Positions 41,247 to 58,582 of a stretch of 64,000 bases of DNA are shown here, piece by piece. The notes under the pieces are model-generated. The model searched no databases. It saw nothing but the letters and a program-made list of their open reading frames with translations, and was not told the DNA's origin. Positions within the stretch are counted from its first letter, which is position 1; the number at the start of each line of letters is the position of its first letter. Source of the stretch: Microbacterium sp. CGR2 (GTDB lineage: Bacteria > Actinomycetota > Actinomycetes > Actinomycetales > Microbacteriaceae); NCBI RefSeq assembly GCF_003626735.1, contig NZ_RBHX01000001.1, forward strand, positions 124,001 through 188,000, in the 5' to 3' direction. A program made the position numbers and the translations under genes.

Positions 41247-41342
41247 CAAAAAATGACCCTCCGCGCACCCAGCAGAGCCCGGTTACCCTTGCTGCGTTTC
41301 CGCCCTGGGGGAATTGGCCTGGATGCCGCCACGCGGAGAGCC
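41247..41342 (-). ncRNA. ffs: signal recognition particle RNA (small 4.5S type)
   Basis: The minus strand carries the SRP domain IV core: CCCCAGGGCGGAAACGCAGC and AAGGGTAACCGGG, with the closing stem GCTCTCCGCG pairing with CGCGGAGGGT. A run of six T follows the stem as terminator. Ends are set to the pairing limits and are approximate by a few bases. It partners with Ffh for membrane targeting. Confidence 0.92.
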
Positions 41343-41464
41343 GTCGTCAAGTCTAGCGGAAGGTGTCACGGGTCGACGACCGGTGGGAGCGAATGATCCA
41401 CGCTGCCCTGTCAAAGCGTACGATCGAGACACGCGCACCGTGGCGCCGACGCGAGAGGGTACGC

Positions 41465-45910: not shown

Positions 45911-46801
45911 TCAGGCCGCGTGTTCGGCGCAGGGAACGGCGTCGCAATCGCCGCAGACGACGAACTGTGCACGGCAGGACAGGTCGGTGCAGTTGGCCGT
46001 GCGGTTGGTCGGCGTGCCGCATCCGACGCAGTGCCCGACAACCTGGGCCTGATCGGAGAACTCGATGGAACCGCGCTTGTCGAAGACGTAGAGCGAGCCT
46101 TCCCACAGGCCCTCGTCGCCGTACTTCTCCCCGTACCGGACGATTCCACCCTCGAGTTGATACACCTCACCGAAGCCGCGGGCCGTCATCAGGCTCGACA
46201 GCACCTCACAGCGGATGCCACCCGTGCAGTAGGTGACCACCGGCTTGCCTTTGAGGTCGTCGTAGGCGCCCGAGTCGAGGAGCGCCACGAAATCTCGCGT
46301 CGTCTCGGTGTCGGGGACGACCGCGCCGCGGAAGCGTCCGATCTGCGCTTCGAGCGCGTTGCGACCGTCGAAGAACACGACGTCGTCGCCCCGTTCGTCG
46401 ACGAGCTCGTGCAGGGCCTCGGGGGTCAATCGGATGCCACCGCCGACGACGCCGTGCTCATCGACACGCAGCTCCCCCGGGGCACCGAACGACACGATCT
46501 CGTCGCGCACCTTGACGCTGAGCTTGGGGAAGTCCAGGCTGCGGCCCTCCCCGTCGACACCGGTTCCGTCGCTCCACTTGATGTCGGCATCTTTGAATGG
46601 CGCATACGAGCGGAACGAACGCGCCCACTTCTTGAGCGCACGGATGTCGCCGCCGAGCGTTCCGTTGACGCCGTCCTTCGAGATGATCAGCCGGCCACGC
46701 AGGCCGAGCGCCTCGCCGAGGTCGCGCTGCCACAGCCGGACGGCCTCCGGGTCCGCGAGGGGCGTGAAGGCGTAGAAAAGGACGATCTTGGGTGTTGCCA
46801 C
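45911..46801 (-). CDS. trhO: tRNA uridine(34) hydroxylase, rhodanese type
   Basis: It catalyses oxygen-dependent 5-hydroxylation of tRNA wobble uridine. The 296-residue protein has an N-terminal acylphosphatase-like domain, a rhodanese domain with active Cys in YCTGGIRCE, and a C-terminal Cys-rich part ([20 protein letters not shown]). The GTG start is preceded by TAGTAT at 6 nt and by no ribosome site. It lies 37 bp after the last gene of the daptide operon but has its own start signal. Confidence 0.93.
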
Positions 46802-46838: not shown

Positions 46839-47573
46839 CTACCTCACGTCGCGGTTCATGAATGTGATCCCTCCCGCCAGAAGCGCGGCGAGCACCCAGC
46901 CGGCCGACACCAGGGCAGCCAGAGAGCTGCCGAGGCGGTCGTCGGGCAGGACTCCCACGGCGGTCACATCGAACCGGAAGGCTTCGAGCAGCGCAAGGAC
47001 GGGGAGGTAGACGGCGCCGGCGCTCCAGAACGTCACGACGAGCATCGCCACGCCCATCGACATGGAAGCGACGAACAGGGCGACGAGATGAGCCTGCACG
47101 ATCATCCCCAGTCCCATTCCCCAGAGGCCCGCAACGGCACCGACCGCGAGTGCGCCTGCGATGGACGACCAATCCACCGGGACAGTCCCCATGACGAGGG
47201 CGAGGGCTGTGTGACCACCAGCGAGACCGACGAGCGAGACGACCGCTCCGCCGAGCGCCGAGACGGGCAACCTGACGAGAAAGGTCGTCCATCGAGGCTG
47301 CAGCATCAGGCGCTGAGCGACGACACCATCACGCCGGTCGATGGTGTATCGGAACGAACCGTAGACGGCGGCGAGAACAGCGCCGTAGGTCGTGAGCACC
47401 GTGCCGAACGGCGCGGCGAGCGCCTCTCTGACCTCGAGCGGGGAATCCGCGAATTCCGGCGTGATGGTCATCGCCAACGACAGCGACAGCAGCAACGCCG
47501 CCGCACACACCCCGAGCAGGACGACGTCACCCGCCAAGCTGCGCGCCTGAGCTCGAAGAGCCCTGCCGATCAC
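46839..47573 (-). CDS. ABC transporter permease, daptide operon
   Basis: This 244-residue protein has six hydrophobic segments. The opening IGRALRAQARSL is a short cytoplasmic part followed by a membrane helix. GTG start overlaps the preceding permease stop (GTGA). The layout matches ABC-2-type permeases with short N-terminal tails. As last gene of the daptide-type operon it probably forms a heterodimeric export or self-protection channel with the preceding permease. Peptide export has not been shown. Confidence 0.82.
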   Translation of the reverse strand: MIGRALRAQARSLAGDVVLLGVCAAALLLSLSLAMTITPEFADSPLEVREALAAPFGTVLTTYGAVLAAVYGSFRYTIDRRDGVVAQRLMLQPRWTTFLVRLPVSALGGAVVSLVGLAGGHTALALVMGTVPVDWSSIAGALAVGAVAGLWGMGLGMIVQAHLVALFVASMSMGVAMLVVTFWSAGAVYLPVLALLEAFRFDVTAVGVLPDDRLGSSLAALVSAGWVLAALLAGGITFMNRDVR

Positions 47574-48298
47574 GCCCCCCTCCTGCGTCCCCGAACCCAC
47601 GCGACCGCGACCAGGCCGACGGCCCACGCGAGCCCGACTGCGAGGGCGGGCCCGAACTGGAGCAGCCGACCCTGGTACCCGGGAACGCTCAAGGCAGCGA
47701 GGGCCAGACCGGGCGAGAATTTCGCCACCTCCGGAACTGTGCGCAACAACGCGAGCTCCACCGCCATCGGGAAAGCGAGAACGATGACCGCGGTCAGATA
47801 GTAGTTCCGAGCGATCCAGCCGATGGCGCCTCCGATGAGTGCGCCGAGGATCGCACCGGCCAGCGCCCCCGCATACGTTCGCCAGGCTTCCGGGGTGAGA
47901 GCGAGCGACATACCGTTCCGGCTCAGGATGAAGCAGACGCCCGCTGTCCACAGCGCCGAGACACAGACCGAAAGCGCGATCGCCACCAGCGCTCCCGCGA
48001 CAAGTTTTCCGCAGAACGTACGACGGAAACCGACCCCGGTGAGCGTTCTCTCCATCGAGGCGTAGTAGTACTCGCGGGTCACAGCGTATGCACCGACGAA
48101 CGCCGCCGAGATGGCGGACCAGGCGAGCGGCTCCAGCAGGCGGCTGGTGGCCGCGCCGGGCTCGAGGCCCGCGAGGTCGAAGCGCGAGCCGTCAGAGAAG
48201 AGCACGAACGCGGGCATGAGGAAGGCGACGAAGTAGATCGCCACGATGGACAGTCCGCTCACCGAACGCAGCACTTCGCTGCGAATCCCTCCCCTCAT
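47570..48298 (-). CDS. ABC-2 type permease, daptide operon
   Basis: This 242-residue protein has six predicted helices (for example VAIYFVAFLMPAFVLF and LAGAILGALIGGAIGW). It begins with MRGGIRSEVLRSVSGL, a cytoplasmic amphipathic start typical of ABC-2 permeases. The ATG overlaps the ATPase stop by 4 bp and the next permease overlaps its own end, so the three transport genes are made in fixed ratio. Self-immunity to the mature peptide is an inference from context. Confidence 0.84.
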   Translation of the reverse strand: MRGGIRSEVLRSVSGLSIVAIYFVAFLMPAFVLFSDGSRFDLAGLEPGAATSRLLEPLAWSAISAAFVGAYAVTREYYYASMERTLTGVGFRRTFCGKLVAGALVAIALSVCVSALWTAGVCFILSRNGMSLALTPEAWRTYAGALAGAILGALIGGAIGWIARNYYLTAVIVLAFPMAVELALLRTVPEVAKFSPGLALAALSVPGYQGRLLQFGPALAVGLAWAVGLVAVAWVRGRRRGA

Positions 48299-49017
48299 GC
48301 CAGCGCTCCTTCCACGAGATCGAAGTACTTGCTCTCCAGCGAATCGGCTCCGCTCGTCACGAGGTCGCCGAGACGCCCGGCGAAGAGCGCCCGCCGCTTG
48401 ATGATCACGACCTCATCCACGACCTGCTCCAGCTCAGCCAGTTGATGGCTGGCGACCAGCACGGTTCCGCCGGCTTCGCGATAGCCGCGGAGGAATCTAC
48501 GAAGCCAGCGGATGCCGTCCGGGTCCAGCCCGTTCGCAGGCTCGTCGAGGATGAGGGTTCGAGGCGATCCGATGAGGGCTGCCGCCAACCCGAGCCGCTG
48601 GGCCATCCCCGTCGAGAAGGTCTTCACGCGGCGGTGGGCATCGGAGGCGAGGCCCACTTCCTCGAGCACCTCGGCGACGCGGCTGCGCGGTGCGCCGGTC
48701 GCGAGTCGGGAGATCTCCAGGTGCCGCCGCGCAGTGATGCCCACTTCGAAGCCGAACCCGTCCATGTGGACACCGACGTGCGATGCGGGATTGTCGAGTG
48801 CGGAGAACGGCACGCCGTCGACGAGGCTGTCACCGCTCGTCGGCGTGAGCAAGCCGACGAGGGCTCGCAACGTGGTCGATTTCCCTGCGCCGTTCGGGCC
48901 CAGAAGCCCGACGATAGACCCCCGCGGCACGACGAACGACAGCTCCTCGACCGCGACCCGCCCGCCGTACTTCTTCGTGAGTCCTCGGACTTCAATCGCA
49001 TGATCATTCATCGTCAT
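48295..49017 (-). CDS. ABC transporter ATP-binding protein, daptide operon
   Basis: This 240-residue ATPase has Walker A GPNGAGKSTT (about 40-49), signature FSTGMAQRLGLA (in place of LSGGQ), Walker B RTLILDEPANGLDP and the H-loop VASHQLAEL. The class is that of antibiotic-peptide export/immunity ATPases (BcrA/CcmA-like). The ATG lies 14 bp inside the end of the protease gene; an alternative ATG at 49011 would remove two residues. It drives the two permeases after it. Confidence 0.9.
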   Translation of the reverse strand: MTMNDHAIEVRGLTKKYGGRVAVEELSFVVPRGSIVGLLGPNGAGKSTTLRALVGLLTPTSGDSLVDGVPFSALDNPASHVGVHMDGFGFEVGITARRHLEISRLATGAPRSRVAEVLEEVGLASDAHRRVKTFSTGMAQRLGLAAALIGSPRTLILDEPANGLDPDGIRWLRRFLRGYREAGGTVLVASHQLAELEQVVDEVVIIKRRALFAGRLGDLVTSGADSLESKYFDLVEGALA

Positions 49018-50704
49018 CCCTTTCCTGCTTCTCCTTCTCGTTCTGCAGCCCTGACAGCGGCACCGTCACGCCGGTCGCCCAGAGGCTCTGCCACAGACTT
49101 CCCACGCCGAGCTCGACTCGCGCCTGCCCCGCGGAAGGCAAGATCCCGACCCCTGCGGATACGTCCACGCCGGCAACGACCGCCGCGGGAACCGACACAC
49201 CTTCCGCCGCCACGGGAAACAGAGCATCGAGTGGAACCTTCGTCGGTTGCGGTCGCTGCGGGGTGACTGTGCCGTCACCCACCTGCTCATTCGCGAGAAG
49301 GCCGGTGTTCATCAGTACGACGCGGGCTCCCTCCGGCACGTCCGACTGGGCCTTCCCACCTGTGCGCACGAGGACCACACGGTCACCGTCAGTGATGAAA
49401 CCGAGCGTGGTCACCAGGGGCACCGGAATCGAGGCTCCTGCGATCACGCCGCCGGCGACCAGGGCGGAGATGACGGCGAAGAATCGGGGGCGGGAAACAC
49501 TCGACCGGAGGACTCGATGCAGCGCCCTGACGAGGATCACGATGCCGACGAGGACGACCACGGCTTCCAGTGCCACCACGAGCAGACCGAGAGCCGGCCC
49601 GCCTCCGGCGAGCGCCCTGCCGATGCGGGCGACGGCGAACAGCACCAGCGCGATCGGGGCGAGGAGGCTTGCAAGACCGAACGGGACGCTCCACCACCTG
49701 TCCACGTTCTTGCTCAGCTGCGGCCCGCCGAACAGGAAGCGGGTCAGGGAGTTCGCGCCGTCACGAATCGCTCGCCCCCGGAGATTCGGCTCGTCCAGTG
49801 CGCTCATCAGCGCGATGTAGCCGTCGAACCGCACGAACGGGACCAGATTGACCACGACGATGGCGATGCAGGACAGCGCGAGAAGCAGGAGGGTGTGGTC
49901 GACGGCCGGTTGAGGAAGCATCAGCGCGGCGAGGAGCGCGATCGCAGCGACGACGGCGTGCACTGCAGGTCCTGCCAGTGCGACGGCGACGCGTTGCCAG
50001 CGGCCCGGGAGGCGCCAGCCATCCGTCACATCGACGAAGAATGCCGGAGTGAGGTAGAAGAGCATGAAGCCGGCCCGGCGGGGTCTTCCGCCGAACCTCG
50101 TGAGAGTGAGTCCGTGCGCAGTCTCGTGAAGCAGGGTCATCAATGACAGTGCAGTGACGAGGATGACGAGGTCCGGTAGCGGCAGCGGCCGACTGAGGAC
50201 GTTCAGCAGGTCTCTCACCTGCAGGATCGCGGCCACGAGCCCGAGGCACATCAGGACGGCAACTGCTGCCTGCAGCGGTCGACGTGACAGTGGGAAGACC
50301 AGGCGATCCAGACGGCGGAAGATGGCGGGCGCGCGGAGCGTGGCGATCTGCACGGTGAAAGGTGGCCGATAGGTCACTCGTCCGGGTGGGAGGTTCGTGT
50401 CACCTTCGAGAAGTCCACTGGCACGGAACCGCTGGACCAGGTGAAGGAAACTCTCCATCGATTCGGAGGCGGCGAAGCGCCTGTGCAGATCGCGCAGCCC
50501 GGTCTCGCCATCCATCGCTGTCAGCAGATCGACGACCGTCCGCGAGACCCTTGATGTGGGCACGTCATGGTGCACCGCAATCCACATACCCTCGTCTGCG
50601 GCTTCCTCGAACGCGACGCCGACAGCGAGAAGCGGGCGGGCGTCCGCAGTGAGTGGAGCGGAAGAGAGGGGCTTTCGTCGGCGAGCGGAACTAGGAGGAA
50701 GCAT
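49004..50704 (-). CDS. mpaP: M50 intramembrane metalloprotease, daptide type
   Basis: Likely the leader-removing protease. The 566-residue protein has an N-terminal soluble part (1-115), residues about 50-103 of which look like a PqqD-like domain: SRVSRTVVDLLTAMDGE, then LHRRFAAS and FLHLVQRFRASGLL. About ten membrane helices follow, with the zinc motif LLHETAHGL (193-197) and the second motif NLVPFVRFDGY (286-296). A soluble C-terminal part closes it. It overlaps the methyltransferase gene by 14 bp. MpaP of the described Microbacterium daptide cluster is an M50-like protease; identity by context and family. Confidence 0.85.
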   Translation of the reverse strand: MLPPSSARRRKPLSSAPLTADARPLLAVGVAFEEAADEGMWIAVHHDVPTSRVSRTVVDLLTAMDGETGLRDLHRRFAASESMESFLHLVQRFRASGLLEGDTNLPPGRVTYRPPFTVQIATLRAPAIFRRLDRLVFPLSRRPLQAAVAVLMCLGLVAAILQVRDLLNVLSRPLPLPDLVILVTALSLMTLLHETAHGLTLTRFGGRPRRAGFMLFYLTPAFFVDVTDGWRLPGRWQRVAVALAGPAVHAVVAAIALLAALMLPQPAVDHTLLLLALSCIAIVVVNLVPFVRFDGYIALMSALDEPNLRGRAIRDGANSLTRFLFGGPQLSKNVDRWWSVPFGLASLLAPIALVLFAVARIGRALAGGGPALGLLVVALEAVVVLVGIVILVRALHRVLRSSVSRPRFFAVISALVAGGVIAGASIPVPLVTTLGFITDGDRVVLVRTGGKAQSDVPEGARVVLMNTGLLANEQVGDGTVTPQRPQPTKVPLDALFPVAAEGVSVPAAVVAGVDVSAGVGILPSAGQARVELGVGSLWQSLWATGVTVPLSGLQNEKEKQERDDDE

Positions 50705-51518
50705 CGTCGCGCACCCCTCCCCGGCGTGCCGCGCACACCGTCTTGAGGAGAACGATGTCCACCCCGCGATGTGCTCGAATGGGAGAGATCTCGGGTGCGG
50801 CGAAGCCGGCGTCGACCAGCTCGTCCGAGAGCACCTCGGGGCTGAGCACTCGCAGGCGACTCGTGAACACCGTCACTTCGCGGCCGTCCGCGATGTCGGA
50901 GGCACGAACCCAGTTGACGAGACGCGCGGCGCCATCCTCCTCCATCTGCTGCGAGAACACGTAGGTCTCGTCCCCACCCGGCCCGGGGACGCTGATCTCT
51001 TCGTCTCTGGGCACTGCAAGGCTCGCCGCCGAGGCGCCTGTCGCGACGGTGAAAGCGAAGACCCCGTCAACGGCAAGGTGGCGTTGCACACTCGCGTAGA
51101 GGCGCGACCTTCCCGGACGGTCGAGCAACGTGATGGATGTCGCACCGATGACGACAAGCCCGTATCGACGCTCCAACGAGAAGTCCCGCATGTCCGCGAC
51201 GGCACACTCCAGCCCCGCCTCATCCGGCAAGGCCCGACGGAGGTGAGCGAGCATGTCGTCGGAGAGATCGATCGCGGTCACCCGCCTGCCGGTTCTCACC
51301 AGGGGGACCGTCAGCCGGCCACCTCCTGCGGCGACGTCGAGAATCGGCCCCGCGGTATTTCTCGCGAGCGCCAGCACCTCTCTGATCTCCGCACGGTCGC
51401 AACCCACCAGCCGCTCGTAGAAGTCTGTGCCCGCTCCTGCGTACAGGTCTTGCTCCCGGGCAGCCGCCCCCGCCGTGTCGAGCCGCGCCGATATGGCGTC
51501 GGTGATCGAACCTGACAT
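50691..51518 (-). CDS. mpaM: class I SAM-dependent methyltransferase, daptide type
   Basis: This 275-residue methyltransferase has motif I ILDVAAGGGRLTVPL (about 59-73), the acidic end of the next strand in AIDLSDDML and motif IV VIGATSITLLD. In daptide biosynthesis the matching enzyme dimethylates the new terminal amine; this role is inferred from neighbours. It starts 64 bp after the third precursor gene, with a hairpin between, and AGAGGTG about 8 nt before the ATG. Confidence 0.85.
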   Translation of the reverse strand: MSGSITDAISARLDTAGAAAREQDLYAGAGTDFYERLVGCDRAEIREVLALARNTAGPILDVAAGGGRLTVPLVRTGRRVTAIDLSDDMLAHLRRALPDEAGLECAVADMRDFSLERRYGLVVIGATSITLLDRPGRSRLYASVQRHLAVDGVFAFTVATGASAASLAVPRDEEISVPGPGGDETYVFSQQMEEDGAARLVNWVRASDIADGREVTVFTSRLRVLSPEVLSDELVDAGFAAPEISPIRAHRGVDIVLLKTVCAARRGGVRDDASS

Positions 51519-51546
51519 TCACTCATCACCTCTCATCGGGACCAAT

Positions 51547-51577
51547 GGGGTGCGGGCGACCAGACCGCCCGCACCCC
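51547..51577 (-). terminator. GC-rich hairpin after the precursor genes (attenuator or mRNA end)
   Basis: Perfect 11-bp arms (GGGGTGCGGGC and its complement) with a 9-nt loop lie 6 nt after the stop of the third precursor gene and 29 nt before mpaM. There is no T run. It may stop part of the transcripts, or block 3' decay, so that precursors exceed enzymes. Confidence 0.6.
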
Positions 51578-51582
51578 CTCGG

Positions 51583-51702
51583 TCAGGTCGCGATCGCTGC
51601 CGCACCACCGACGATGGTGATGATGTAGCTCACGTGCTCCCACCATTCAAGCGGCGCGTCGATTTGTTCGAGTTCCACGAACTCGAGCGATTTCTTCTGC
51701 AA
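51583..51702 (-). CDS. mpaA3: daptide-type precursor peptide 3 (39 aa)
   Basis: The TTG start (51702) is the only one in frame; AGGAGG lies 6 nt upstream. The leader holds LEFVELE (residues 6-12) and then QIDAP (13-17). The rest is a hydrophobic core, starting LEWWEHVSYI and ending GGAAAIAT, with a C-terminal Thr. Leader motif and final Thr are shared by all three precursors here. The likely product loses its leader and carries a modified C-terminus. No Cys, so no lanthionine or disulfide chemistry. Confidence 0.87.
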   Translation of the reverse strand: MQKKSLEFVELEQIDAPLEWWEHVSYIITIVGGAAAIAT

Positions 51703-51729
51703 TTCCCACCTCCTTGCTGGCGGCCATTC

Positions 51730-51855
51730 CTACGTCAAGGCCAGGATTCCGATGATCACGCCCACGGCAAATCCTCGAACGAAATCATCGGTGTCATTCA
51801 GTGCTTCCATCGCCTCGAGTTCAGTGAACTCGAGCCTCGGCGACACAGCTTGCAT
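51730..51855 (-). CDS. mpaA2: daptide-type precursor peptide 2 (41 aa)
   Basis: ATG start with the strongest ribosome site of the three (AGGAGG, 6 nt upstream). The leader contains LEFTELE at 8-14 and MEA at 16-18. The core starts at about 19 (LNDTDDFVRG) and turns to a hydrophobic helix ending IIGILALT. The C-terminal Thr is the expected modification site. It follows precursor 1 by 42 nt and precedes precursor 3 by 27 nt. Confidence 0.9.
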   Translation of the reverse strand: MQAVSPRLEFTELEAMEALNDTDDFVRGFAVGVIIGILALT

Positions 51856-51897
51856 CGCCTACCTCCTCTCTCCGTCTCGATCTCGGTCCCGGCGGGA

Positions 51898-52029
51898 TCA
51901 CGTCGCAGCGGCCGCGCCGATGCCTATCAGCACCAGCGCGCCAATCGCGCCTTTGTAGAAGCTCTCCCAACTGGGCGCTTCCATCTCGTCCAGTTCTTGG
52001 AACTGGATCTTCTCTACCCTTGTGTTCAT
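51898..52029 (-). CDS. mpaA1: daptide-type precursor peptide 1 (43 aa)
   Basis: ATG start at 52029, 5 nt after the dehydrogenase stop; the ribosome site AAGGGGG is inside that gene's end. The leader holds IQFQELD at 8-14 and MEAP at 16-19. The core begins at Ser20 (SWESFYKG), has GxxxG-like spacing in GAIGALVLIGIG and ends AAAAT. Terminal Thr. Length and layout match daptide precursors, in which only the C-terminal residue is rebuilt. Expected to be helical and membrane-active. Confidence 0.92.
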   Translation of the reverse strand: MNTRVEKIQFQELDEMEAPSWESFYKGAIGALVLIGIGAAAAT

Positions 52030-52034
52030 TCGAT

Positions 52035-53219
52035 TCACCCCCTTCGAACGGAATAGGAAGGTCGGCCGCCTTCGCCGACTTTCTGTCGGCTCCAGTGGGA
52101 ATCACGGAGCACATCGCAGAAGTCTTCCGCCACGAGTTCGGCGAGCATCGGTTGGCGATTTCCCCATGCCTTCTCGGTGGCCACCGCGATACGGCAGATA
52201 TGGTCGGCGTTCGGCGCTCTCGGAATGGGAATTCTCCAGCGTCGGATGAGGGCGGATATGCCCTCGGCTGGGTCCAGGGGAAGGTCCGCTCGTTGCGAGA
52301 CGCCTGCCCAGAAGTTCTCGAGGCTCTGCCGATCACCCCACCGTCTGTCTCCGGAGCAGATCCGGCGCCAGACCGCAGCGATCACGGCTGCCGTCGCGAC
52401 CATCTTGCGAATCCCGAGCAGGAACGAGACTTCGTTCGCCACGTACCAATGACGGGCACTGTACGGGTCTCGGCCCCGCAGAGCAGCGGTGCGCTGGGTG
52501 GCCGCACTCAGACGCGCGAGGCGCAGTCGTCCCGAAGCAGAAGCCGAGTCACGAGTCGCCGACTCGAGGAGAGCGCGCCCGAGAGCGACGGCATCGCTGT
52601 TCCCTCTCGGGCTTCTCTGTGAACTCGTGGATGCGCCCGCCAGACGGAGAAACGCCTCCAGCGCTCCCTCTTCGACCATGTCGGGCGTGAGAGTGCTCAG
52701 GTTGAGCGAATCGATGATGGCATGGCGCGGTCGCAGGGAACGTCCGACGATGAGCCGATGGCCTTCTTCGTTGGTGACGACGCCGACGCTGTTGGTTTCC
52801 GACGAGGTGCCCAATGTCGTCGGAACTGCGACGATATCGATGGGCGGCGGAGCATCGGGCAAGAAGGTCAGCGCCGACCGTGCGGCATGCCCCACGACGT
52901 AGTCGAGCACCCGCCCTCCGGCGAGCGCAAGAGAGGCGATCTTGCCGACGTCGAGAACACTGCCTCCGCCGACAGCCACGATGACGTCAGGCCGCCAGCG
53001 AGCGATCTTCCGTGCGATCGCGACCGCGATCGTGATGTCTGCTGACGACGCGTCGACCTCTATCCTCCTGGCCGGGCAACTCGCCAGGAACGGGACGGTG
53101 AGCGCCGCATCCGTGATCACGAGGGTCTCACGCCCTGCAGTGAGGCGCTCAGCCACTTGAGAGGCCACCCCGTGCCCGTGCCAGAGTGTGGGAACCCTTC
53201 CTGCAAATCCCGAGGTCAC
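52035..53219 (-). CDS. mpaB: alcohol-dehydrogenase-family enzyme, daptide type
   Basis: The 394-residue protein is an iron-type alcohol dehydrogenase relative with the NAD(P)-binding loop AVGGGSVLDVGK (82-93) and VPTTLGTSSETN. In known daptide clusters this enzyme oxidises the side chain of the C-terminal Thr, followed by decarboxylation. The usual metal ligands look changed: where the family has DALTHAIEAY this protein has VEEGALEAF, and the later His pair is replaced by WYVANEV and RKMVATA. Metal-free catalysis or another ligand set is possible. The start overlaps mpaD's stop by 4 bp. Confidence 0.86.
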   Translation of the reverse strand: MTSGFAGRVPTLWHGHGVASQVAERLTAGRETLVITDAALTVPFLASCPARRIEVDASSADITIAVAIARKIARWRPDVIVAVGGGSVLDVGKIASLALAGGRVLDYVVGHAARSALTFLPDAPPPIDIVAVPTTLGTSSETNSVGVVTNEEGHRLIVGRSLRPRHAIIDSLNLSTLTPDMVEEGALEAFLRLAGASTSSQRSPRGNSDAVALGRALLESATRDSASASGRLRLARLSAATQRTAALRGRDPYSARHWYVANEVSFLLGIRKMVATAAVIAAVWRRICSGDRRWGDRQSLENFWAGVSQRADLPLDPAEGISALIRRWRIPIPRAPNADHICRIAVATEKAWGNRQPMLAELVAEDFCDVLRDSHWSRQKVGEGGRPSYSVRRG

Positions 53220-54499
53220 GCGAACTCCCCCTGGACCTGCGCCAGCCCGGCCCGCACAGCCGAATCCACTTCGAGTAGATCGCTGGCGGTGAATCCATAC
53301 GCCGGAATCAGCCCGATGGAGCTCGGCCCGGGCTGCACGAGGACGCCGTTCTCGGCGATGGCGGCGACCACTCGGAGCACCTCGAGCCCGGAGAGCGGCG
53401 TTTCATTCTGGTGTCGAAGCCCCAGTCCGAGAAAGCAGCCACGTCCTGTCATCTCCGTCACGACACCGTCCGTCTTCCACGATCTCGCCAGGCGCAGCAG
53501 CTCCGCCGCAAGGGCTCGCGTGGTCGATTCCACGTCGATACGGCGAAGTTCGTCGATCACCGCGACAATGGCGGCCGCACAGGCCGGCGTTCCCGCTTGT
53601 GTCTCACCGTGGACGAAGGTCCAGCCACCGCGGACGAATTCGGAAGCGACACGGACCCCCACGAGGAGCGCCGCTGCCCCCATCGCGCCGTTGGTCAACG
53701 CTTTCGACAGGATGAGCACATCGGGTCCGGCAGCCCATTCGTCGGTGGCGAGCATCGACCCCGTGCGGCCGAACCCTGTGGCCACCTCATCCGCGACGAT
53801 GAGGAACCCGTACTCGTCGCGCAGGGCGAGAAGGCGATCTATGAACACGTCCGACAGTGCGTGTGCACCGCTGCCCAGGATGGGCTCGACGACGATAGCG
53901 GCCACTCTGGAGCCTTCACGCTTCAACAGCGTTTCCAGCTCTTCTCCGTCGTCATCGTGCGCGACGTGCCTCACCGACCGGCGGTCGACCGAATAGACGG
54001 ATTGCAGCAGTGCGTCTCCGCTCAGCGCGTGGCTGCCGTACATGGTGCCGTGGTAGCTGCCTGACAGACCGACGATGAGCGAACGGGACCTGGCGCCTTT
54101 CTGGAACCAATACTGTCGTGCGAGTTTCATCGCGGCGTCGTTGGCCGCGCCGCCCGACGTGGAGAAGACGACCCGGCTGTATCTGGTCGGGTCCGCGAGT
54201 TCGATGAGAGCATCCGCCGCAACTTCCGCGTACCGGTGCGGCGCTCTGAACAACGACAGGTAGGAGGCGTCGTGAGTCGCTTTGCTCACGGCTTCGGCCA
54301 CCGCGAGGTTCCCAAAGCCGAGTGGAACATTCCACAGTCCGCTCGTCGCGCACAGACGTGTGGTTCCGTCAGCGAATTCGATGCGATGCCCGGCGGCGGA
54401 GACGGCGACACGATCACGCGTGAAGCTCGCGTCTGCAGGGAGCATCGAGGTCCAGAGCGCATGAGGGACTCTCGACGTCCGCTCTCCTTCGACCATCAT
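53216..54499 (-). CDS. mpaD: class III PLP aminotransferase, daptide type
   Basis: The 427-residue protein shows PLP-binding FSTSGGAAND, Asp237 in VADEVATGFGR and Lys266 in LILSKALTNGAMG, the class III (AGAT/ornithine) layout. It probably transaminates the ketone made from the C-terminal Thr to give a 1,2-propanediamine end. Two adjacent ATGs (54499, 54496) overlap the mpaC stop by 4 or 1 bp, and there is no own ribosome site, so translation is coupled. The longer frame to 54790 runs inside mpaC. Confidence 0.9.
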   Translation of the reverse strand: MMVEGERTSRVPHALWTSMLPADASFTRDRVAVSAAGHRIEFADGTTRLCATSGLWNVPLGFGNLAVAEAVSKATHDASYLSLFRAPHRYAEVAADALIELADPTRYSRVVFSTSGGAANDAAMKLARQYWFQKGARSRSLIVGLSGSYHGTMYGSHALSGDALLQSVYSVDRRSVRHVAHDDDGEELETLLKREGSRVAAIVVEPILGSGAHALSDVFIDRLLALRDEYGFLIVADEVATGFGRTGSMLATDEWAAGPDVLILSKALTNGAMGAAALLVGVRVASEFVRGGWTFVHGETQAGTPACAAAIVAVIDELRRIDVESTTRALAAELLRLARSWKTDGVVTEMTGRGCFLGLGLRHQNETPLSGLEVLRVVAAIAENGVLVQPGPSSIGLIPAYGFTASDLLEVDSAVRAGLAQVQGEFA

Positions 54500-55593
54500 G
54501 AGGCGTCGACTCGCCTTCCGAAGTGGGCGTCGAGCGCGGCGACAGCTTCGAGGCACAGCACGTTCGCCACAGGAGTACGCACACGAAGCTGCCGAGCCAC
54601 TCGCTCGACCGCGATCTCCAGCGTGCTCGAGGTCTGAGTGGCGGCCACCACCGTGGCCGTCGACGGCGACAGCAGCTGGCGGCGCAGAGTTCGGGTGTCT
54701 GCGAACACGAAGCCCTCTGCCGTTTCCAGCAGGAATGGATCCGCGGTCAGCGGCTCGGCATCGGCGAGACCGTCGTCGAGAAGGGACCACCCGAATCCCG
54801 AGATCTTTGCGGCCCCGTTTGCAAGCCGGAGCATTTTCATGAGGTCCGTCGCGTTGAGGTACCGTTCGATCCGTTCGCGATTGCGCCCGTCATCCGTGAG
54901 CACCTCTCGCGGCGCACGATCTCCCCACGCCACGGCACGAGGGAGCGGGAGGGCGAGCAAGGCCAGCAGCTCGTCGACGCCGCCGAGGACCTCGCCCTGT
55001 ACACCGACGCTGACCCTGCCTTCCGCGCTCACTCTGATGGCGGTCGGCTTCTCGAGCTCACCCGGTCTCGCCAGGGCGGCGCGATCCGCGAGGAGAACGC
55101 GCGGGTCGATCAATGCCGACGGAAATACTCCGGTTCGACGAGCCAGTTCGGCGTCGTCGAGAAAAGCCCGCCAGCTGGATGCGTCGAGGATGCACACTGC
55201 GGTGGGACCGACGATATGGACGAATGCCGCAGCGACATACTCCTGGAGTTCCACACCGCGTTCACCGATGAACAGCTCGTCGCCGACCTCATTCAGGGCG
55301 CCCCGGTACCGCACGACGCGGGCACGCCCCGCGAACGGTCCACTCTCCGCAGGCAGAAGAATCACGTCCTCCGCGCCTGCCACCTCCTCGACACCTTCTG
55401 CCGTGGCCCCGTTGTCGACCAGGAACACCCGCGGATACGACTCTCGGGCTCCGGTCAGCCATTCGCGCAGAGCCCGCGGTCCCACGAGTTCCGGCGCGGT
55501 CCCCTCTGCGTCTTCTCGCATCATGCGCCGCCTCGCGTGCGTCGCGCCCAGCTCGCGCTCCCCTGCATGCTTCCTCCCGCTGTCATAGCTCAT
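54496..55593 (-). CDS. mpaC: daptide biosynthesis recognition protein (MpaC-like)
   Basis: Recognised by position and pattern rather than by catalytic motifs. The 365-residue protein is acidic and Leu-rich, without Cys clusters or membrane helices, and contains segments such as WRAFLDDAELARRTGVFPSALIDPR. Known MpaC-type proteins are called RiPP recognition proteins of daptide clusters. The ATG at 55593 has GAGG 4 nt upstream and a promoter 25 nt before it. An ATG at 55524 would remove 23 basic residues and cannot be ruled out. It leads the operon. Confidence 0.78.
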   Translation of the reverse strand: MSYDSGRKHAGERELGATHARRRMMREDAEGTAPELVGPRALREWLTGARESYPRVFLVDNGATAEGVEEVAGAEDVILLPAESGPFAGRARVVRYRGALNEVGDELFIGERGVELQEYVAAAFVHIVGPTAVCILDASSWRAFLDDAELARRTGVFPSALIDPRVLLADRAALARPGELEKPTAIRVSAEGRVSVGVQGEVLGGVDELLALLALPLPRAVAWGDRAPREVLTDDGRNRERIERYLNATDLMKMLRLANGAAKISGFGWSLLDDGLADAEPLTADPFLLETAEGFVFADTRTLRRQLLSPSTATVVAATQTSSTLEIAVERVARQLRVRTPVANVLCLEAVAALDAHFGRRVDAS

Positions 55594-55602
55594 CTGGCCT
55601 CG

Positions 55603-55646
55603 ATACGTCCTCGTATGAGGCTATAGAGAAGCCCTACAAGGTGCAA
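55603..55646 (-). promoter_or_regulatory. promoter and palindrome of the daptide operon
   Basis: On the minus strand -35 TTGCAC (55641-55646), a 17-bp spacer and -10 TAGCCT (55618-55623) put the start site near 55611. A palindrome ATACGAGGACGTAT (55603-55616; 5-bp arms, 4-bp centre) covers that site, a place where a repressor could bind. The region is AT-richer than its surroundings. No regulator gene lies in the operon. Confidence 0.65.
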
Positions 55647-55755
55647 TATTCTGCGCGCAGGTCTCGCTGTCGAGCGCGCGTCGCGTCGGCACCCGCACCG
55701 GATGACCTGTCACTGCCCACCCGAGCCATCGGATAGGATGGACAGGTTGTTACCT

Positions 55756-55843
55756 GGTGACGTGTCCGAGCGGCCGAAGGAGCACGCTTGGAAAGCGTGT
55801 GTTGTGCAAGCAACCGCGGGTTCGAATCCCGCCGTCACCGCCA
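55756..55843 (+). tRNA. tRNA-Ser (GGA anticodon)
   Basis: An 88-nt class II tRNA. Acceptor GGTGACG/CGTCACC, anticodon stem CACGC/GCGTG around TTGGAAA (anticodon GGA), long variable arm (TTGTGCAAGCAA), T arm GGTTCGAATCC, discriminator G and encoded CCA. It is the boundary next to the daptide operon, divergent from it. Confidence 0.97.
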
Positions 55844-55846
55844 GAG

Positions 55847-55877
55847 AAAAAGGGCCCCGCATCAGCGGGGGCCTTTT
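55847..55877 (+). terminator. hairpin terminator after tRNA-Ser
   Basis: Stem of about 12 bp with one G-G mismatch (AAAGGGCCCCGC/GCGGGGGCCTTT) and loop ATCA, followed by TTTT. Confidence 0.85.
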
Positions 55878-55894
55878 CTGCATCGACCGGAGCG

Positions 55895-56506
55895 TCAGTC
55901 TCCGGCAGGCTGGAAGCGCACGCCGTAGCTCTGCGCGCCCGGAGCGGCGGGGAGCCGCGTCATTCCGAGACGCTCGTAGAACGCGGCAGCGCCGACGTTG
56001 TTCGGGTCGATACCCAGATGCAGCCCGGACACGCCTCGCCTCGTCAACTCGGCGAACAGCGTCTCCATCAGTCGGCGTCCGAGGCCTTGACCCTGCGTCT
56101 CCGGCAGGAGATCGATGTGCAGGTGAGCGGGGTACTCGGCCGCGTTCGGCTCGATGCCCGGCATCCGGGTGTAGCCGTAGTCGACCATGCGATCTTCCCG
56201 CGTGACGATCTCGGCCGGTCGGGGGTGGGCCGCGCTGCGCGTAGGCCACCATTCGTCGCGGAACCACGTGTAGAACGCATCCGTGTCGTCGGTCGCCACG
56301 ATGTAGCCGATGGCGCGGCCGTCATCGGTTTCCACCACCCAGGCGAGGTCCGGATGCCGCTCGACGTAGGGGACGGCGAAGAGGTCGCCCCAGAGGCTGT
56401 CGTCGCTCAGGATGCCCGTCGCGTCGCCGCCCGCATCCGCGGTCTGCACACAGATCTCGGACACGGCGGCGCGATCTGCGGGGCGGTAGGGGCGGATGCT
56501 CGACAT
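55895..56506 (-). CDS. GNAT family N-acetyltransferase
   Basis: This 203-residue acetyltransferase has the acetyl-CoA-binding QGQGLGRRLMETL (about 139-151) and the C-terminal NNVGAAAFYERLGM. A central segment around WWPTR and the His-rich HLHIDLLPE fit a small-molecule or protein N-acetyltransferase; substrate unknown. GAGGAG lies 7 nt before the ATG. It is 17 bp downstream of the PAP2 gene, so the two may be cotranscribed. It converges on tRNA-Ser. Confidence 0.9.
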   Translation of the reverse strand: MSSIRPYRPADRAAVSEICVQTADAGGDATGILSDDSLWGDLFAVPYVERHPDLAWVVETDDGRAIGYIVATDDTDAFYTWFRDEWWPTRSAAHPRPAEIVTREDRMVDYGYTRMPGIEPNAAEYPAHLHIDLLPETQGQGLGRRLMETLFAELTRRGVSGLHLGIDPNNVGAAAFYERLGMTRLPAAPGAQSYGVRFQPAGD

Positions 56507-56523
56507 TGCGGACTCCTCGGGAT

Positions 56524-57165
56524 CTATCGGGGCGCCGTCAGCTTATCGGCCGACATATCCTGCTGCGGCCCCCGCGCCCACGGCAGGAGCCAGGCGCCGA
56601 GCACCAGAACAACACCCGCGCCCACGAGCGCTCCACCCAGGGTGTCGGTCGCCCAGTGCACCGACAGGAACGTGCGCGAAAGGGCCATCCCGAGAATCCA
56701 GAGAGCGCCGAGGAGCGCCGTCCACACTCGGGGAAACAGGATCCAGAACACGAATGCGACCGTTGCGGCGTTGGCTGCATGACCAGAGGGGAACGAGCCG
56801 TAGTCGCTCAGCACCAGCATGTCGTCCGGTCGAGCGCGGCCGAAGAGCTGCTTCAGCAGCTGCACCACACCCGCGCTGACGGCGAAACAGATCGCGGCGA
56901 AGATGGCACTGCGCCATTGCCGTGTGAGCACAAGGGTGAGGATCGCCAGCAACGGCACCCCGAGGATGGCCACCCAGCCGCCGCCGATCCAGTCCATCGC
57001 GAGCGCGAAGGAGAGCATCCAATCGCCGCGGATGCCGGCGATCATCTGGTTCCACCACTGATCGAACCCGGGGGGCTCGGAGTAGCCGAACACGATCGCG
57101 GCGCCCAGCGCCGTCGCGAGGACGAGGCAGCCGACACCCCACCACAGCAGCATTCGCCTGTTCAT
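56524..57165 (-). CDS. PAP2 family membrane phosphatase
   Basis: This 213-residue membrane protein carries the three PAP2 motifs: KQLFGRARP, FPSGHAAN and SRTFLSVHWATD with the phosphorylated His. Five or six helices. Members dephosphorylate undecaprenyl pyrophosphate or lipid phosphates at the outer face; lipid-carrier recycling is a reasonable guess. It is 31 bp downstream of the MFS gene start region on the same strand side. Confidence 0.9.
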   Translation of the reverse strand: MNRRMLLWWGVGCLVLATALGAAIVFGYSEPPGFDQWWNQMIAGIRGDWMLSFALAMDWIGGGWVAILGVPLLAILTLVLTRQWRSAIFAAICFAVSAGVVQLLKQLFGRARPDDMLVLSDYGSFPSGHAANAATVAFVFWILFPRVWTALLGALWILGMALSRTFLSVHWATDTLGGALVGAGVVLVLGAWLLPWARGPQQDMSADKLTAPR

Positions 57166-57196
57166 CGTCTTATTCTGGCTGATGAATCCTGAACAC

Positions 57197-58582
57197 TCAG
57201 GGATTGAGCATCGCCACAGTCCGCGGACGGACGATCAGCCACAGCGCGAGGATGCCGATCACGGCGCATCCCACCATGACCGAGGCCATGGTCGTCGCAG
57301 TGATGCCGGCATCATTGGACACCCATCCGACAACCGGCGACACCAGACCCGCGACACCGAAGTTCACCGCGCCGAGGATGGACGCCGCCGTCCCCGCTGC
57401 CTTCCCGTGACGGTCCAGCGCCAGCACCTGCACGTTCGGGAAGGTGAAGCCGCACGCGGTCATGAAGACGAACAGCGGCACGACCGTGCCCCACAGCCCG
57501 AGGCCGAGCTGGTCGGTGAGGATGATCGTGACGCCCGCGAGCAGCATCACGCCGGTCGAGTATGCGAGCACCCACTGCGGCCCGAACCGGGCGGCCAACC
57601 GAGACGCGGCCTGCACTCCCGCGACGACGCCGAGCGAGTTGACCGCGAACAGCAGGCCATACTGCTGGGCATCGAGGCCATGCGTCCCCTGGAACAGGAA
57701 CGGAGATGCGGAGAGGTACGAGAACAGACCGGAGAAGGTCATGCCGCCGATGACCAGCACACCCAGGAACACCCGGTCGGAGAGCACTGAACGGTACCGC
57801 TGCAGCATGGTCGCGCCGCCGCGGTCCTGTCGTCGCGCGACGGGGAGCGTCTCCGGAACGAAGAGGACGGCCGACACCAGCATCACGATGCCGTAGGCGG
57901 CGAGGAAGCCGAAGATGCCCCGCCACGGCATCAGCGTCAGCAACCAGGAGCCGATCAGGGGGGCGATGACCGGCGCGACGCCCGAGACCAGAGCCAGCCG
58001 CGACAGCATGACCACCAGCCGGCGACCGCCGAACAGGTCGCGGACGATCGCCATCGCCACCACGCCACCCGCCGCCGCACCGATGCCCATCAGCACGCGC
58101 GCAGCGCTGAGCAGGGCCAGATCCGGCGCGAACGCCGCGCCGAGGCTGGCGAGGACGTGCAATGCCGTCACCGCGATCAACGGAACCCGTCGCCCGACCT
58201 TGTCACTGAGCGGTCCGACCACGAGCTGCCCGACCGCGAAGCCGATCATGGTCCCGGTGAGCGTCAGCTGGATCGCGGCCGCAGTGGTCTGGAAATCCTC
58301 CTCCAACACCGGGAATGCCGGGAGATACAGGTCGATCGTGAACGGCCCGAGCGCCGTGAGCGCCCCGAGCAGCACGATGTAGAGCGTCCGGCGCCCGTGC
58401 GAGAGCGCGTCGCCGGGGTGAAGCATGATGGGCGCCGTCGAGGGGTTCGCGCCGAGTGTCCGGATGGCGCCCGTCGCCGTGGACGTGCGGATGCTGCCGG
58501 TGACGGTGCGGATGCCGCCGGTGGTCGTGCGGCCCGGCTGCGGGGTCGAAGGAGTGGGGCCAGTGTGGGGAGCGTCAGGCAC
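57197..58582 (-). CDS. Bcr/CflA family MFS multidrug exporter
   Basis: The 461-residue protein has twelve helices from about residue 68, with the family motif A GPLSDKVGRR and segment FTIDLYLPAFP of the Bcr group. It begins with an unusual hydrophilic tail of about 60 residues including a repeated GxIRT unit (GGIRT, GSIRT, GAIRT). GTG at 58582 has AAGGA 6 nt upstream, so the tail is likely translated; an ATG at about residue 53 has no ribosome site. Substrate unknown. Confidence 0.88.
   Translation of the reverse strand: MPDAPHTGPTPSTPQPGRTTTGGIRTVTGSIRTSTATGAIRTLGANPSTAPIMLHPGDALSHGRRTLYIVLLGALTALGPFTIDLYLPAFPVLEEDFQTTAAAIQLTLTGTMIGFAVGQLVVGPLSDKVGRRVPLIAVTALHVLASLGAAFAPDLALLSAARVLMGIGAAAGGVVAMAIVRDLFGGRRLVVMLSRLALVSGVAPVIAPLIGSWLLTLMPWRGIFGFLAAYGIVMLVSAVLFVPETLPVARRQDRGGATMLQRYRSVLSDRVFLGVLVIGGMTFSGLFSYLSASPFLFQGTHGLDAQQYGLLFAVNSLGVVAGVQAASRLAARFGPQWVLAYSTGVMLLAGVTIILTDQLGLGLWGTVVPLFVFMTACGFTFPNVQVLALDRHGKAAGTAASILGAVNFGVAGLVSPVVGWVSNDAGITATTMASVMVGCAVIGILALWLIVRPRTVAMLNP

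Follow-up and report, generated by a model that had tools for sequence, protein, structure and literature searches.

An apparently intact daptide gene cluster of the mpa type between tRNA-Ser(GGA) and trhO in Microbacterium sp. CGR2

We analysed a stretch of 64,000 nucleotides of contig NZ_RBHX01000001.1 of Microbacterium sp. CGR2, hereafter called the window; coordinates are positions in it. Between 46839 and 55593 (8755 bases) lie eleven contiguous minus-strand genes, transcribed in the order B, D, C, A1, A2, A3, M, P, T1, T2, T3. We read them with high confidence as an intact cluster of the Microbacterium mpa type for daptides, which are ribosomally synthesized and post-translationally modified peptides (RiPPs), with the pathway proposed below. 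This type of cluster has already been characterised chemically (mpa), and the window holds a complete, ordinary daptide cluster. By analogy with the known products, it most likely makes three C-terminally dimethylaminated, membrane-seeking helical peptides. The cluster contributes three predicted daptides whose exact masses can be searched for, and it is a clean example of a single DapB in a daptide-rich genus. Comparison with its relatives raises two testable questions, namely why many of them keep two DapB proteins and whether daptide systems displace each other at one chromosomal address. Either answer would bear on what daptides do for their producers.

All eleven reading frames are open, and eight of the products score above the curated cut-offs of daptide family models. 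For the five biosynthetic proteins, B reaches 251.2 bits with NF041823 (cut-off 150), D 562.4 with NF041821 (450), C 333.8 with NF041822 (300), M 261.5 with NF041820 (175) and P 404.4 with NF041824 (300). The precursors A1, A2 and A3 score 92.9, 95.1 and 88.2 bits with NF041805, NF041806 and NF041807, respectively, each with a cut-off of 40. With eight models passed, the daptide match is therefore not due to chance. C also matches PF00465 (78.3 bits, cut-off 31.3), the family to which DapC belongs in Actinomycetota, P matches PF02163 (32.4 bits, cut-off 27.2) and T1 matches ABC_tran (PF00005). No NCBIfam or Pfam family was matched by T2 or T3 above its curated cut-off, and a sequence search of solved structures with B gave a best match of only E 0.089. 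A sequence-only reading of this DNA had described eleven packed minus-strand genes with every part of a daptide system, which the gene calls and the eight models confirm. It had also named a lack of daptide model matches for the MpaB, MpaC and MpaD homologues as evidence that would count against it; B, C and D all pass. The three precursors with C-terminal Thr that it proposed are likewise borne out, since all three end in Thr and each exceeds the cut-off of its MpaA family. Across the 69 loci described below, Thr is the last residue of all 175 matched precursors (A1 58, A2 55, A3 62). Nine A1 rows at first appeared to end in Asn because they had been read from a frame position before a stop codon; counted again, 58/58 end in Thr.

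The mpa products 1-3 of M. paraoxydans DSM 15019 have m/z 2363, 2232 and 2339, with a core that follows a conserved Pro and a terminal Thr converted to a dimethylated 1,2-propanediamine (Dmp) (PMC10036551). Our mass rule starts the core after the eighth motif residue and counts -16.94 for the change of Thr to Dmp. Four loci in other genomes (L046, L047, L048 and L052) reproduce 2363/2232/2339, the published nominal mpa masses, and the rule is thereby checked. For the window it predicts [M+H]+ of 2349.33 (A1), 2289.30 (A2) and 2383.32 (A3). It might be supposed that the window contains the described M. paraoxydans mpa cluster itself, making the same products, as the gene order and the three precursor families are common to both. 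However, none of the three window masses equals a published one (2349.3, 2289.3 and 2383.3 against 2363, 2232 and 2339). DSM 15019 was not identified among the loci compared; against L048, which has the mpa masses, the window proteins are 59% (B), 75% (D), 63% (C), 65% (M) and 58% (P) identical. We consider this supposition extremely improbable. The question whether this was the described cluster, a relative or a variant, which the sequence-only reading had left open, can thus be settled: it is a relative and not mpa itself, since its core masses differ and four other loci match. The window shares with mpa the B, C, D, M and P families, precursors of the MpaA1, MpaA2 and MpaA3 families and the same predicted chemistry, and with the mpa-mass loci the gene order and chromosomal slot. 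It differs from mpa in core sequences and masses, and its A2 has Leu(-1) where the mpa-mass loci have Pro(-1).

Several observations weigh against an intact, working mpa-type cluster. C exceeds its NF041822 cut-off only modestly (333.8 against 300), A2 has Leu rather than Pro before its predicted core, and the region holds a single promoter-like site, equal to the chance expectation. The change P(-1)A reduced conversion of MpaA1 (PMC10036551), and cleavage and modification of A2 are therefore less sure. Among 55 A2 rows residue(-1) is Leu in 29, Pro in 22, Gln in 2 and misread in 2, which makes Leu the commoner state among relatives. The lack of a promoter beyond chance would also speak for a cluster that is decaying or silent and no longer yields a product, and decay is known in the genus: in L082 the space between tRNA-Ser and trhO contains B alone, and the remaining cluster looks deleted. 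Against decay in the window stand its open frames, the eight modelled proteins above cut-offs and the selection on its enzymes. In comparison with five relatives, the proportion of synonymous differences (pS) is 0.40-0.61 and that of nonsynonymous differences (pN) 0.05-0.27. Change of the third-position type thus far exceeds amino-acid change, indicating purifying selection on the window proteins, and we consider decay or silence very improbable.

For this organism, the individual chemical steps, the sites of cleavage and the action at membranes are inferred from homology to the published mpa and tfDap work. The precursor leaders carry an ExxM(I)E/D-type motif that would be bound by the RRE of B. 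B and C together would use NAD(P)+ to decarboxylate the terminal Thr oxidatively, probably without metal, leaving an aminoacetone ketone; D would turn the ketone into an amine by transamination, and M would dimethylate the amine to give Dmp, which as C-terminal (S)-Dmp is the class-defining feature of mature daptides. The membrane protease P is the putative leader peptidase, cutting after the conserved Pro in A1 and A3 or after Leu in A2, and T1T2T3 would then export the product or protect the producer. The expected products are three hydrophobic helical peptides with the masses given above, predicted to be positive at both ends. Daptides 1-3 of mpa are haemolytic and were not antimicrobial in the reported tests (PMC10036551); the window peptides are therefore most likely membrane-active too.

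Glu and Arg occupy two positions of a probable former metal site of C in 80/80 aligned rows, some genomes being represented twice. In window C they are Glu188 and Arg192, which stand opposite an Asp and a His of 9knp, a solved relative of the iron-dependent alcohol dehydrogenase (Fe-ADH) fold, that are presumably metal ligands. The altered residues are consistent with the published activity of TfDapC without metal (PMC12670281). A lost metal site as a sign of new chemistry in C was rejected, having already been published for TfDapC in the same paper. The tfDap cluster of Thermobifida fusca and the saDap cluster of Streptomyces azureus share with the window the B, C, D, M and P steps, including a PF00465-fold C with altered metal-site residues. 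Unlike the window, both have a YcaO that forms an imidazoline; tfDap additionally encodes a monooxygenase and a homologue of lanthipeptide dehydratases (PMC12670281). No YcaO is found among the eleven window genes, and the YcaO of L096 had no tblastn match in the window stretch searched. The window thus lacks the in-cluster YcaO that marks imidazoline (Diz) daptides.

The sequence-only reading had called T1T2T3 an ATP-binding cassette (ABC) exporter. The ABC ATPase part of that claim stands, T1 being a match to ABC_tran, while the exporter role is plausible and unproven. T1T2T3 may instead be a LanFEG-like self-protection pump within a daptide cluster. LanFEG systems consist of one ATPase and two different permeases, which the present gene set resembles, and the best NCBIfam match of T1 is TIGR03740, the lantibiotic protection ABC ATPase. 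At 185.2 bits, however, T1 lies below the TIGR03740 cut-off of 309.75 and so outside the family. In S. albus colonies carrying mpaABCDMP, with the flanking genes omitted, product was made with a weaker signal (PMC10036551), which would also suit protection, whereas the T1T2 pair of T. fusca was predicted to be an exporter by its authors (PMC12670281). We regard self-protection as a possible, though less than probable, role.

Clusters of this kind are widespread in the genus. A search with B found 12 named relatives, all Microbacterium and 43-68% identical, and the same eleven-gene order occurs in 12/12, including homologues of the permeases T2 and T3. The DapB model matches 68/366 Microbacterium genomes at E 0.001, 65 of them above the cut-off, and 0/14 control genomes. 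The locus set compared here consists of 68 loci taken from 67 other genomes, plus the window, 69 in all. By tblastn, 55/69 loci (window included) hold the eleven genes in window order; in L052, L066 and L106 some cluster genes match in two pieces. Of the other 14, some are truncated at contig ends, some are diverged or reduced, and some lack one weak precursor match. Loci L054, L107 and L110 have a daptide-like arrangement with another gene order and longer, Ala/Gly-rich cores of 32-35 residues, lengths that come from a loose pattern, which often doubles a core boundary or misplaces it by two to three residues. L054 is from genome G103, which has a second, window-like cluster (L055).

The location of the cluster is also conserved. 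In 47/69 loci, window included, it is flanked by both tRNA-Ser(GGA) and trhO. The tRNA is present in 50/69 loci, always on the same relative strand; from the fetched stretches of the other 19, which include one contig end and a diverged subgroup located elsewhere, it is absent. In eight genomes sampled for having trhO and no DapB match (L114-L121), tRNA-Ser(GGA) is still near trhO in six, at gaps of about 90 (L119), 175 (L118), 260 (L116), 1,100 (L114), 1,200 (L115) and 3,100 (L117) bases; it was not found near trhO in L120 and L121. In L114-L119 the interval contains almost nothing or genes of other kinds; the tRNA is on the other strand in L115, L116 and L119. Integration of the cluster at the 3' end of the tRNA, as a candidate origin, was unsupported: the 5' end of the tRNA faces the cluster, with constant relative strand in 50/50 loci, which places the usual integrase target on the far side. 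A plasmid origin was also rejected, as no match to the 8755-base cluster was obtained by megablast among 72,556 plasmid records. Depending on the species, one slot thus holds a window-type or a diverged daptide cluster, some other genes, or next to nothing.

A second DapB, here called b2 and about 31% identical to window B, lies between tRNA-Ser and B in 18/69 loci (L044, L049, L051, L053, L065-L067, L069-L073, L075, L076, L078, L079, L083 and L106). The window cluster has none. In four of the 18 (L075, L076, L079 and L083), b2 is shortened to an open frame of 255-278 codons without the RRE end, and its match to the 331-position DapB profile stops at about position 235. A b2-type DapB is also the only DapB of five diverged daptide clusters (L090, L092, L096, L097 and L111). 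Like the window cluster, four of these five adjoin the same tRNA-Ser, L111 starting at a contig end, and trhO was found in L097 and L111. They are unlike it in D (about 50% identical), in C (about 33-36%) and in their precursors. L096, the one diverged locus examined with the models, passes the daptide cut-offs for B, D, C, M and P, C barely so (303.1 against 300). A YcaO gene is present in L092 and L096 and was not found in L097 and L111; L090 is cut before that place.

In the tree built from 84 B and b2 rows, a branch with support 100/99 has all 18 tandem and five solo b2 proteins on one side. Inside that side the branching is open, neither tandem nor solo b2 forming a single clade, and the program warned of long branches. 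The ratio of nonsynonymous to synonymous substitution rates (dN/dS) in six of seven pairs is 0.22-0.29 for b2, where B has 0.24-0.36 and D 0.11-0.25. The sequences of the seventh pair are nearly identical, which makes it uninformative (b2 1.83, B 0.81). As the b2 values resemble those of B, and the one shortened-b2 pair gives 0.23, b2 is kept by selection. It is nevertheless dispensable for the basic pathway, because clusters with the mpa masses lack it and mpaABCDMP sufficed for product (PMC10036551). The passages of PMC10036551 and PMC12670281 consulted make no mention of a second DapB; no wider literature search was made. Tentatively, the slot may be an exchange site where two diverged kinds of daptide system replace each other, with b2 a working partner kept from the other kind, although we think this rather unlikely. 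If it were true, the window would represent the state in which a single DapB took over the whole job, and the B/b2 pair would divide the labour between leader binding and DapC activation.

Table 1. Genes of the window cluster and the edges of its chromosomal slot
Feature	Assignment	Position	Strand	Family match or remark
B	DapB/MpaB homologue, daptide recognition protein (RRE fusion)	54496..55593	-	NF041823 daptide_RRE; start codon uncertain
D	DapD/MpaD homologue, class III pyridoxal phosphate aminotransferase (ketone to amine)	53216..54499	-	NF041821 daptide_amino, PF00202
C	DapC/MpaC homologue, probable NAD(P)-dependent oxidative decarboxylase, Fe-ADH fold	52035..53219	-	NF041822 daptide_DH, PF00465
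A1	Precursor, 43 aa, predicted core SWESFYKGAIGALVLIGIGAAAAT	51898..52029	-	NF041805 MpaA1 family
A2	Precursor, 41 aa, predicted core NDTDDFVRGFAVGVIIGILALT preceded by Leu(-1) instead of Pro	51730..51855	-	NF041806 MpaA2 family
A3	Precursor, 39 aa, TTG start, predicted core LEWWEHVSYIITIVGGAAAIAT	51583..51702	-	NF041807 MpaA3 family
M	DapM/MpaM homologue, probable S-adenosylmethionine-dependent N,N-dimethyltransferase	50691..51518	-	NF041820 daptide_MTase
P	DapP/MpaP homologue, intramembrane M50-type metalloprotease, HExxH (HETAHG), putative leader peptidase	49004..50704	-	NF041824 daptide_HExxH, PF02163
T1	ABC transporter ATPase	48295..49017	-	PF00005; best NCBIfam TIGR03740, below cut-off
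T2	Membrane permease subunit	47570..48298	-	Hydrophobic open reading frame; positional homologue in 12/12 named loci
T3	Second membrane permease subunit, GTG start	46839..47573	-	Hydrophobic open reading frame; positional homologue in 12/12 named loci
tRNA-Ser(GGA)	Upstream slot edge	55756..55843	+	Same neighbour and relative strand in 50/69 loci
trhO	tRNA uridine hydroxylase, downstream slot edge	45911..46801	-	NF001133, 216.1 bits, cut-off 170

Some gene starts were refined. D begins at an ATG that overlaps the stop of B, and T3 at a GTG overlapping the stop of T2. The start of A1 was set at ATG 52029 because relatives have a stop codon between the upstream GTG and that ATG (11 loci compared, some being one genome twice). 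The start of B is uncertain. The first ATG is at 55593, but of the 12 named relatives 11 become similar to B only from residue 18-40 onwards and one from residue 8. G+C content inside the cluster is 61-67%, with its minimum at the precursors, and about 69-71% in the left flank. It is also 66-68% just upstream (55500-57999), so the drop extends beyond the cluster. The upstream neighbours on the minus strand (55895-58582) are genes for a GNAT acetyltransferase, a PAP2 phosphatase and a Bcr/CflA-family efflux transporter, the last above the TIGR00710 cut-off. Of the eight cluster-less loci examined, six have these neighbours at the slot as well, and five have the transporter. A bacterial small signal recognition particle RNA is encoded on the minus strand at 41249-41345.

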